Positions 33,591 through 36,492 of a stretch of DNA of 39,812 nucleotides are shown here, in pieces. The position numbers and the translations under genes are program-made. Origin of the DNA: Candidatus Gastranaerophilales bacterium (GTDB lineage: Bacteria > Cyanobacteriota > Vampirovibrionia > Gastranaerophilales > Gastranaerophilaceae); contig CALUWK010000015.1 of the NCBI GenBank assembly GCA_944324475.1, positions 1 to 39,812 of the forward strand. The letters run 5' to 3'. The notes beneath the pieces were generated by a model. The model saw nothing but the letters and a program-made list of their open reading frames with translations, had not been told where the DNA came from and ran no database searches. Each line of letters starts with the position of its first letter. The first letter of the stretch is position 1.

Positions 33591-34478
33591 GTGATTAATT
33601 ATTACAAAAATCTTGTAGTTGATGAATTAAACAAATATTTTGATGAATATTCAAGAGGAGCTTTGTATTCATCTAAGATTTGGGAAGCTATGCGATATAC
33701 TACCATGCTTGAAGGTAAGCGTTTGAGAGCCATTATTTGTCTTGAGATTGCAAATTTGTTTAAAGTTGATCTTTGCGATGCGCTTCCTTGTGCTTGTTCG
33801 TTGGAGATTATGCACGCATATAGTTTGATACACGATGATTTACCTTGCATGGATAATGATGATTTAAGAAGAGGAAAACCAACGAATCATAAAGTTTTTG
33901 GTGAAGCTGTTGCAACTTTGGCGGGCGATGCTTTAATTTCTTTCGGTGCTCAAATATTGATTGATAAACTTTCTTGCAAGTATTCATCTGATTTAATTTT
34001 GGATATTACAAGGGATTATTTAAAAACAGCAGGTGCCTCTGGAATTGTGGCGGGTCAAGTTGCTGACATAGAGGCGGAAAACAAAGAGATTGATTTTGAA
34101 AATTTAAAATACATACATAAATATAAAACAGGAGAACTTTTTAATTGTGCTGTTACAATGGGTGCTAAATTAGCTAATGTCAGGCATGATGTTCTTTTGA
34201 AATTGCAGGAATTTGCTTATAATTTTGGAATTTTGTTTCAGGTTTATGATGATATTATCGATTGTACTTTATCGACTTTAGAGCTTGGAAAAACGGCAGG
34301 AAAAGATAATGTTTCAAAAAAGTTAACTTATGTAAGTGCTTTTGGAGTTGATGAATCTCGAAATATTTTTTATTCGCTAATTAAAAAAAATCGTGATATA
34401 CTGAATAAATTAGAAATTAGGTCTTCGGTATTTGAAGAAATTAATGATATGCTAATTAGGAAAGTAAAAGGCGAATAA
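33591..34478 (+). CDS. ispA: Polyprenyl (farnesyl/geranylgeranyl) diphosphate synthase
   Basis: Condenses isopentenyl diphosphate with allylic diphosphates, for isoprenoids and the undecaprenyl carrier. 295 residues. The first Asp-rich motif is D82-D83-LPCM-D88, with RRGKPTNH after it, and the second is YDDIID near 219. The residues before the first motif (HAYSLIHDD) suggest a C15-C20 product, but chain length cannot be settled by eye. The start is a GTG 4 bases after rsgA, with a weak GGAT. The stop overlaps the next ATG as TAATG, so the genes are coupled. Confidence 0.93.
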   Translation: MINYYKNLVVDELNKYFDEYSRGALYSSKIWEAMRYTTMLEGKRLRAIICLEIANLFKVDLCDALPCACSLEIMHAYSLIHDDLPCMDNDDLRRGKPTNHKVFGEAVATLAGDALISFGAQILIDKLSCKYSSDLILDITRDYLKTAGASGIVAGQVADIEAENKEIDFENLKYIHKYKTGELFNCAVTMGAKLANVRHDVLLKLQEFAYNFGILFQVYDDIIDCTLSTLELGKTAGKDNVSKKLTYVSAFGVDESRNIFYSLIKKNRDILNKLEIRSSVFEEINDMLIRKVKGE

Positions 34479-34948
34479 TGGGAGAATTACAATTTTTTAA
34501 TACAGGTTATGAAGCTTTGTTTTCGGGTTTAGTTTCGGCTTTTATTGCTCAATTTATTAAGGTTGTAACTTATCTTTGTACTCATAAAAAGATTAATTTT
34601 AAGATTTTTACAACAACAGGTGGAATGCCGAGTTCCCATACGGCTGGTGTTATTGCTCTTTCTACTTCGGTTGCATTGATTGAAGGCGTTAGCTCTATGT
34701 TGTTTGCTGTTTCTCTTGGATTTTCACTTATTGTTATGCAAGATGCTTCAGGAATAAGACGTGCAGCGGGAAAAACGGCTGCAACTCTTAACAGGTTGGT
34801 TGATGAATTTGTTCAAAAAAATCATGAAGTAAAACCTTATGCGGCATTGAAAGAGCTTTTGGGTCATACACCGCTTGAGGTTTTTTGTGGCATGTTGCTT
34901 GGAGTTTTGATACCTTTTGTTGTTCATTATTCAAGACAAATATTTTAA
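34478..34948 (+). CDS. Divergent PAP2-family (DUF212) membrane protein
   Basis: 156 residues, similar in plan to B. subtilis YuiD. The motif GGMPSSHTAGVIALST (about 47-62) holds the Ser-His pair of PAP2 phosphatases, and MQDASGIRRAAGKTA (about 87-101) is the family signature. Four hydrophobic segments predict an integral membrane protein. The neighbouring prenyl synthase suggests dephosphorylation of a prenyl (di)phosphate, but this is inferred from context. The start is coupled by TAATG. It ends 5 bases before the stop of a small opposite-strand gene. Confidence 0.9.
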   Translation: MGELQFFNTGYEALFSGLVSAFIAQFIKVVTYLCTHKKINFKIFTTTGGMPSSHTAGVIALSTSVALIEGVSSMLFAVSLGFSLIVMQDASGIRRAAGKTAATLNRLVDEFVQKNHEVKPYAALKELLGHTPLEVFCGMLLGVLIPFVVHYSRQIF

Positions 34949-34953
34949 TATAT

Positions 34954-35124
34954 TTAGTTTATGCTTCTTTTTAGCATTTGTGTTAGGGTCGCTTCTTTTT
35001 TGATTCTTTTTTTAACTTGTTCTTTGGCATTTGATAGTTTAAAAAAGTCGTCGTTGAATTTGCATAAACCTATGGCACAACTTTCGTCATCATTAAAATT
35101 AAAAAGTTTTTTTATTATATCCAT
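34954..35124 (-). CDS. Small 56-residue protein, unrecognised
   Basis: A minus-strand frame from ATG 35124 encodes a 56-residue protein: MDIIKKLFNFNDDESCAIGL, then a Lys-rich helix-prone tail (residues 28-45 with QVKKRIKKEA), ending LKRSIN. A consensus GGAGG lies exactly 6 bases before the ATG. A TTGACT is present upstream on the same strand (35167-35172). The plus-strand frame across this stretch lacks a ribosome site. The N-terminal acidic loop and the Lys-rich tail suggest a nucleic-acid- or ribosome-associated regulator, but nothing is known. It fills most of the gap between the DUF212 gene and the helical-repeat gene. Confidence 0.75.
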   Translation of the reverse strand: MDIIKKLFNFNDDESCAIGLCKFNDDFFKLSNAKEQVKKRIKKEATLTQMLKRSIN

Positions 35125-35201
35125 TAAAAACCTCCGTTATTAATAAATTAATTTTTTTAAATTAAAAGTCAATTTTAATTATATATTTTCGTTTGTCTTT
35201 T

Positions 35202-35229
35202 TTGCTTAAAGTTTTTGATATGCTTTAAT
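35202..35229 (+). promoter_or_regulatory. Promoter of the helical-repeat gene (predicted leaderless)
   Basis: TTGCTT (35202-35207), spacer 16, TTTAAT (35224-35229), then 7 bases to the ATG at 35237. No Shine-Dalgarno. The hexamers are imperfect, but the spacing repeats the pattern of other genes here. Confidence 0.5.
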
Positions 35230-35236
35230 AGTAAAT

Positions 35237-35917
35237 ATGGTTAATGAAATTTTAAAAATAGATGTTCTTGAAGCTGAGCTCTTTTCAAAAATTTTTGAGA
35301 TAGTTGAAATAGAGCAAGTGGCTTCTTGTCAAGAGGCGCAAAAGTTAATATATTATTTAACAAACCATCCATCTCCATTAAGAGAGGCATGTGCTCTTAA
35401 ATTAGAGGAAATTTGCCCTAAATTTTATAATTATTTTTTAGATGATTTTTCAAAAAATAAATTTTTAGATGCCTTGATTGATATTAATCCAAATATTTGT
35501 CGTGCTATGTGTTCTATTATATCTAATGTTAAACAGATAGCTGATTTATTAGAATTAGATATAGTATTAAAAATCAAGGATTTGCTTAAAGAAATAATGA
35601 GTTGTGAAAATACTTGTAAAGATTTTTTTTTAATTTCTGTAAAAAATACTAAAAGCCATGCTAAGAATAAAAAAATATTTGCTCTTTATTGGTTACTTGA
35701 GGCTTTATTTTTTTCTTTTAGTGGAAAATATAATTCTGAAGTATTAGAAATATTGATTGTTACAATAAATTTTAATGACTTTACAATTAGGGAAAAAACC
35801 GCTCAACTTCTAAAAAAAACAGCTAATCCTCCCTTGGAATTATTAAAAAAAGCAAAAAGGGACCAAAATTTTTATGTAAAAATTCAAGTTTATGATAAAA
35901 TTAACTTTGATGATTAG
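35237..35917 (+). CDS. Helical-repeat (HEAT-like) hypothetical protein
   Basis: 226 residues, almost all alpha helix in paired arrangement. A segment such as HPSPLREACALKLEEICPKF (about 49-68) matches the HEAT/armadillo style, and about four to five repeats are likely. Cysteine is frequent (8 residues) but not in a metal-site pattern. No signal peptide or membrane segment. Such proteins are usually scaffolds. It is 17 bases upstream of efp and may be co-transcribed with it. The start is set by the -10 at leaderless spacing. Confidence 0.75.
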   Translation: MVNEILKIDVLEAELFSKIFEIVEIEQVASCQEAQKLIYYLTNHPSPLREACALKLEEICPKFYNYFLDDFSKNKFLDALIDINPNICRAMCSIISNVKQIADLLELDIVLKIKDLLKEIMSCENTCKDFFLISVKNTKSHAKNKKIFALYWLLEALFFSFSGKYNSEVLEILIVTINFNDFTIREKTAQLLKKTANPPLELLKKAKRDQNFYVKIQVYDKINFDD

Positions 35918-35934
35918 ATAAACAGGAATAATTT

Positions 35935-36492
35935 ATGATTTCAGTAAACGATTTAAAAACCGGTTTGACATTGGAAATTGATAACGGATTATGGTCTGTT
36001 GTTGAATTTTTGCATGTAAAACCTGGAAAAGGTGCTGCGTTTGTGCGTTCTAAGCTAAAAAATGTTGAAACAGGACAAGTTGTTGAAAAAACTTTTAGGG
36101 CAGGTGAAAAAGTTGCAAAAGCAATGCTTGACAGGCGCGAGATGCAGTATTTGTATAAAGAAGGTAATGACCTTGTTATGATGGATTTGGAAAGCTATGA
36201 ACAATTACCTGTGCCAGTCGATAGGGTTGGTGATGGTATGAAGTATTTGCAAGAAAATATGACTGTTCAAATATTGTTTCATGACAGTAAAATTATAGGT
36301 ATAGATTTGCCTAATTTTGTTGAATTGAAGGTTATTGATACACCTCCTGCAGAAAAGGGAAATACTGCTCAAGGAGGTAGCAAACCGGCAACGCTTGAGG
36401 GTGGGGCTGTTGTTAATGTGCCGTTTTTTATTCAAACAGGTGATACATTGAGAATAGATACAAGAACAAATGAATATTTAGACAGAGTGTAA
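35935..36492 (+). CDS. efp: Elongation factor P
   Basis: Relieves ribosomes stalled at proline runs. 185 residues with three beta-barrel domains. The tip lysine that receives the post-translational modification is Lys32 in HVKPGKGAAFVRSK. The C-terminal domain has GDTLRIDTRTNEYLDRV, the family end. CAGGAA precedes the ATG. Order efp-accB-accC is shared by cyanobacteria and many Firmicutes. No modifying enzyme (EpmA, EarP, YmfI) is seen in the window, so the modification type is unknown. Confidence 0.98.
   Translation: MISVNDLKTGLTLEIDNGLWSVVEFLHVKPGKGAAFVRSKLKNVETGQVVEKTFRAGEKVAKAMLDRREMQYLYKEGNDLVMMDLESYEQLPVPVDRVGDGMKYLQENMTVQILFHDSKIIGIDLPNFVELKVIDTPPAEKGNTAQGGSKPATLEGGAVVNVPFFIQTGDTLRIDTRTNEYLDRV

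Follow-up and report, generated by a model that had tools for sequence, protein, structure and literature searches.

A conserved small-protein gene and its divergently encoded HEAT-type neighbour in Gastranaerophilales, with a possible adaptor role for the small protein

Introduction

Animal guts commonly harbour Gastranaerophilales, which are relatives of the Cyanobacteria that do not photosynthesize and have hardly been cultured. The window analysed here, i.e. the whole stretch of 39,812 nucleotides of contig CALUWK010000015.1 (assembly GCA_944324475.1, Candidatus Gastranaerophilales bacterium), includes a minus-strand frame of 56 codons that raises two questions: is so short a frame a gene and, if so, what might its product do? 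An earlier note on this DNA had proposed that the frame, although below the standard cut-offs for open reading frames, encodes a real small protein; indeed, it is missing from the default list of frames because that list begins at 60 residues.

A coding frame below the usual length cut-offs

The frame was found at exactly the coordinates given in the earlier note, and is open from the ATG at 35124 to the TAA at 34954 (Table 1). Its product, MDIIKKLFNFNDDESCAIGLCKFNDDFFKLSNAKEQVKKRIKKEATLTQMLKRSIN, has the layout of what is here denoted family A: an N-terminal helix, an acidic stretch, the sequence IGLCKF, a Lys-rich middle part and the C-terminal sequence TLTQMLKRS. The GGAGG motif lies exactly 6 bases before the ATG, as had been claimed, and the longer plus-strand frame said to mask the gene is present as well, with an ATG that has no Shine-Dalgarno sequence. 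The window contains 87 ATG-started frames of 40–70 codons, and none of the others has a GGAGG at a distance of 4 to 14 bases before its start; 30 dinucleotide shuffles gave 3 such frames altogether (mean of 0.1 per shuffle), so that a small frame led by GGAGG is more than expected by chance.

Table 1. Features of the locus (window coordinates).
Feature	Position	Strand	Basis or remark
Small protein gene (family A), 56 residues	34954..35124	-	Frame, conservation, selection
Shine-Dalgarno GGAGG, 6 bases 5' of ATG	35131..35135	-	Sequence and relatives
Spurious overlapping frame, 60 codons	34961..35143	+	Register broken by stops in 14/27 genus members
Shared divergent intergenic region	35125..35236		Promoter-like matches at chance level
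Predicted HEAT-type alpha-solenoid protein, 226 residues, divergent partner	35237..35917	+	Profiles, AF2, fold searches

The earlier note had named codon-substitution analysis as a check, and the lack of conservation of the frame or of the Shine-Dalgarno sequence in close relatives as the outcome that would speak against a gene. An intact homologue was detected by protein search in 27 of the 28 genomes of the genus (49 to 96% identity to the window protein, the query itself excluded), the single genome without a match being an assembly that is 77% complete (G006). A purine-rich, Shine-Dalgarno-like motif precedes the ATG in all 26 genus members shown (the full GGAGG in 6, GAGG in most of the others); the 27th member, L027, has no clear Shine-Dalgarno sequence upstream of the gene. 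The comparison of the 27 genus sequences included 351 pairs, of which 188 were usable (0 < dS < 2.5) and 163 were saturated or undefined; dN was lower than dS in each of the 188 pairs, with a median ratio of 0.18. The differences between close relatives and the window sequence are mainly in third positions (for example, 22 of 23 in L004), the antisense register contains an internal stop in 14 of the 27 genus members, and homologues outside the genus retain 22–42% protein identity. Given the conservation, the purifying selection, the third-position bias and the loss of the antisense frame, the small frame is a genuine protein-coding gene under purifying selection, and the central claim of the earlier note is strongly supported.

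The same observations bear on the opposite reading, namely, that there is no protein here, the stretch being a conserved RNA or regulatory element that is open by chance, or that the gene is the plus-strand frame. This reading is already refuted: the dN/dS ratio, the third-position changes and the antisense stops rule it out, and the conserved Shine-Dalgarno sequence and the diverged homologues in other genera also contradict it. No Rfam family was matched in positions 34400-35960.

One part of the earlier proposal did not survive. The pair Cys16/Cys21 had been listed among the features that make the product look like a real small protein, but Cys16 is present in just 9 of the 27 genus members, and at the position of Cys21, which is found in all 27, other genera have Ser, Thr, Ala, Asn, His, Phe or Lys. 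On these grounds, a metal-binding or disulfide site was rejected.

Conserved ends and distribution of family A

Family A was aligned in two rounds, with 29 (A1) and later 45 (A3) members. At the N-terminal end, a helix with Lys5 is followed by [IV]GL, Gly19 and Leu20 being invariant in A3; the wider motif in this part of the protein is [IV]GLxxF. An L[ST]xL[LM][KR]R-like C-terminal end was found, under a slightly looser pattern, in 44 of the 45 rows, a count that is a description rather than a test because the rows were selected by similarity. The first 11 residues are modestly amphipathic, with 22 of the 45 rows below the 10% level relative to shuffles. AF2 modelled the small protein with moderate confidence (pLDDT 67.7; helices 2-7, 21-43 and 47-52), so that, by prediction, it appears to have no confident fold of its own, as expected if the peptide folds on a partner.

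The A3 profile was run against 292 genomes sampled from the phylum (cut-off E of 0.001) and matched 129, of which 128 belong to the family of the window (f1) and one, G039, to another family of the order; there was no match in the five class-level relatives (family f9) or in the rest of the sample. After the exclusion of eight genomes in which only the N-terminal part was matched (G059, G084, G096, G113, G123, G141, G148 and G216), 121 genomes with full-length members of family A remain. The results of the first profile searches (108/117 and 248/286) are left out of these counts and are not used as gene counts because they mixed family A with cross-matches to family B, described below. Thus, even a frame below the usual length cut-offs can belong to the genes that a lineage conserves comparatively well.

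Comparison of the small protein with known families was uniformly negative in the databases searched: the best Pfam match was to an unrelated family (15.6 bits versus a cut-off of 27.6), NCBIfam gave no match, and a search of solved structures with the small-protein profile yielded chance-level matches only (best E of 0.08). No description of the small protein was found in the literature on small or HEAT-repeat proteins of Gastranaerophilales and Melainabacteria; the sole paper retrieved was a general survey of cyanobacterial proteomes (PMC9529120). The protein may well be present without a name in large small-ORF catalogues, and the gene may be among those that ordinary gene callers report.

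A predicted HEAT-type scaffold encoded next to the small gene

The main context of the small gene, absent from the earlier note, is a divergently transcribed neighbour that encodes a predicted HEAT-type protein. AF2 predicts for this partner an alpha-solenoid of 11 helices (pLDDT 92.8, pTM 0.89). The lists of matches from Foldseek and VIA-align are filled by HEAT/ARM chains, with importins, beta-catenin and PP2A scaffold chains at Z of 12.5 to 14.0 in VIA-align; these matches are generic for helical repeats and single out no specific family. The profile of the partner family matched alpha-Rep/HEAT sequences (best E of 1.5e-15) and 6veh, a HEAT repeat domain-containing protein (E of 2.2e-8), and the protein carries repeated motifs of the D-x-N-x-x-[IV]-x-R type. 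Given the predicted solenoid and the profile matches, the partner is classified as a HEAT-type scaffold, from which no specific role follows. HEAT-type alpha-solenoids commonly bind peptides.

Compared with the HEAT and HEAT_2 proteins, the partner is alike in the alpha-solenoid fold, the repeat motifs and the alpha-Rep match but differs in staying below the Pfam cut-offs, in being restricted to the order in the sample and in implying no catalytic role. The gathering score was not reached by any of the six partners scanned (best scores of 22 against 27.7 bits for HEAT_2 and 20.2 against 23.5 for HEAT), the partner from the window itself had no Pfam match, and no NCBIfam family scored above its cut-off. 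With the profile of the partner (A4), matches were obtained in 125 of the 292 genomes of the phylum sample, all within the order of the window. With the complexes of importin alpha with NLS peptides and of beta-catenin with short ligands, the partner shares the general receptor fold, and the short basic or helical ligands in such ARM/HEAT complexes provide a working analogy for the small protein; the Z-scores are generic for helical repeats and do not indicate sequence kinship, and peptide binding would be a conjecture in the present case.

Linkage of the two genes

Each of the 27 genus loci has a HEAT homologue adjoining the small gene, and so has each of the 38 further loci read, some genomes being counted twice; L030 and L031, two false matches, have none. 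By profile, both genes are present in 120 of the 292 genomes, and in 119 of these, they are adjacent and divergent on one contig, with 95 to 232 bases (median 138) between the matched stretches. Only G039 (family f6) departs from this arrangement, its two genes being located on separate contigs (L148:1904-2083 and L176). The small gene without the partner was found only in G171, where the contig ends about 50 bases past the match. The HEAT gene alone was recovered by profile from five genomes (G059, G096, G123, G148 and G204), in each of which the same divergent site is occupied by a diverged small frame that follows a good Shine-Dalgarno sequence and contains GLK and K[LF]SDIMK; MVKCLKNIKSFLVGMFTQDESVGLKSMERIKVVQEISIPKKNEDFKFSDIMK is one example. 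The profile search detected neither gene in five members of the family of the window (G084, G101, G113, G141 and G216) or in the remaining 161 genomes of the sample. Overall, few sampled members of this family lack the pair.

More distant families of the order (f2, f4, f5 and f7) also carry the divergent pair. A second set comprised 40 genomes, mostly chosen as small-gene misses or outgroups; the HEAT gene was found in 19, with a recognizable divergent small frame in 14, that of the window included; the other five HEAT loci (G105, G129, G044, G039 and G047) have no recognized adjoining small frame.

The outer neighbours of the pair vary by genus, and only the pair itself is common to genera with different surroundings. 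The cluster around it in the window (RsgA, GGPP synthase, a divergent PAP2, EF-P and AccB; RsgA and PAP2 named from database matches, the others by reading) is shared with L155, L152 and L151. The intergenic region contains 3 promoter-like sites, compared with 2.2 expected, and no terminator.

Several departures from the common arrangement are worth recording. In one genus member, G002, a second, diverged small-gene/HEAT pair (L077:97-1072, contig C96) is located on a 3.6 kb contig and resembles the pairs of other genera; it could be the result of horizontal transfer or a contaminating contig. In locus L014 (1501-3129), the small gene is separated from the divergent PAP2 gene by about 1 kb more sequence than in other genus members.

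The small-gene/HEAT module, kept by nearly every sampled member and with no curated name and no description that was found, may well serve a cell function specific to this lineage, and the small protein is best filed as a new lineage-specific family with a HEAT-repeat partner. The two genes also offer a concrete and easily tested protein pair.

A small gene that adjoins a larger one and encodes a basic protein is what a two-gene toxin-antitoxin or phage-defence module would look like. Such a module is, nevertheless, highly improbable here: the genes are divergent in 119 of 120 cases instead of forming a co-directional operon, the pair is near-universal in the sampled order rather than patchy and mobile, and PADLOC matched neither protein.

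The N-terminal module on other proteins

The N-terminal helix, the acidic stretch and [IV]GL[CS]x[FL] recur on proteins with other C-termini. In families B, C and D from the same bacteria, this module is common with the small protein, whereas the C-terminal parts differ and no HEAT gene is linked in the loci read. Family B (16 aligned members) combines the module with a different C-terminus, often NFFLL or similar. It occurs in many genera within the family of the window but not in the genus of the window, where its profile retrieved nothing beyond cross-matches to family A and a scatter of weak hits; the HEAT partner was not seen at family B loci read by eye. Family B persists in genomes that lack family A and the partner (G084, G113 and G141, with G216 added by an N-terminal match).

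The family B loci (L068-L075 and L078-L085, e.g. L069:2050-2211:+, with a C-terminus often of the form ...NxFFLL) include several in which a conserved gene, MIEMKVMGIALDTRTGSPIVVL..., presumably DUF151-like, lies within the same few kb. Gln-rich proteins of about 160-175 residues also bear the module (L144:1442-2038, L145:1062-1562 and L146:1276-1758, from G074, G108 and G134, with starts taken at MEQFLK), as does a further type of protein in G062; the profile search detected no HEAT partner at the loci of these longer proteins. Another N-terminal sequence common to several proteins in this order is MGL[AS]ASQA..., with which the products of three adjoining genes begin near the pair of a family f7 genome (L163:7645-10353).

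The recurrence of the N-terminal part tentatively suggests a portable docking unit of Gastranaerophilales placed ahead of varied C-terminal binding ends, the small gene being the version that would connect a shared docking site with a HEAT scaffold of its own. If this somewhat doubtful reading is true, the order owns a family of two-ended mini-adaptors.

A possible two-ended adaptor

What, then, might the small protein do? The larger coiled scaffold protein is probably its partner, and there is a roughly even chance that the small protein is a two-ended adaptor or a regulatory subunit of this divergently encoded HEAT protein. In such an arrangement, the basic middle part and the C-terminal helix L[ST]xL[LM][KR]R would bind the HEAT protein, whereas the N-terminal helix with [IV]GLxxF would dock elsewhere. 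The simplest inference from the distribution of these parts assigns the C-terminal end to the HEAT protein and the N-terminal end to something else: because the module recurs on different proteins that are unlinked to the HEAT gene, a separate target, either a common partner or the membrane, is suggested for it.

In favour of an adaptor are the 119 of 120 adjacent divergent pairs, the joint absence of the two genes, the confidently predicted solenoid of the partner and the recurring module. The opposite mean net charges, +4.5 for the small protein (45 sequences) versus -3.3 for the partner (38 sequences), are weak evidence in the same direction. Against it, the distances among the small proteins and among the HEAT proteins from the 24 genus genomes that have all five of the genes compared show no correlation beyond that of control genes (partial r of -0.04 compared with 0.22 to 0.36 for the controls; permutation fraction of 0.67), a test that is weak because divergence is high. 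The unlinked genes in G039, the five of 19 HEAT loci without a small frame and the only modest amphipathicity of the N-terminal 11 residues also count against an adaptor.

The linkage and co-occurrence on their own are compatible with a situation in which the two products share a process without contact, for instance, a small regulator or localization factor and a co-regulated scaffold. This is improbable, given that the partner has a predicted fold of the kind that binds peptides and that the conserved ends of the small protein resemble peptides.

Compared with the adaptor, it is less probable, but still a possibility to be reckoned with, that the small protein acts alone, for example, at the membrane via its N-terminal helix, and that the HEAT gene adjoins it through a common promoter or regulator; divergent pairs can stay joined through a common regulatory region alone. 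The occurrence of the N-terminal module on proteins without a HEAT neighbour, the negative outcome of the distance-correlation test and the separation of the genes in f6 are all compatible with such independence. The joint presence and absence of the pair points to more than promoter sharing, however: both genes are absent from the five genomes of the family named above, four of which (G084, G113, G141 and G216) nevertheless retain a paralogue that has the same N-terminus.

For an adaptor docked at the membrane as well as for a protein acting there alone, the MinD-type membrane-targeting sequences, which are short amphipathic helices with Lys and hydrophobic residues, provide a point of comparison. 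The small protein is alike in having a short Lys-containing hydrophobic helix, such as FLKKLF, and differs in that this putatively membrane-binding helix is N-terminal and is followed by the invariant GL.
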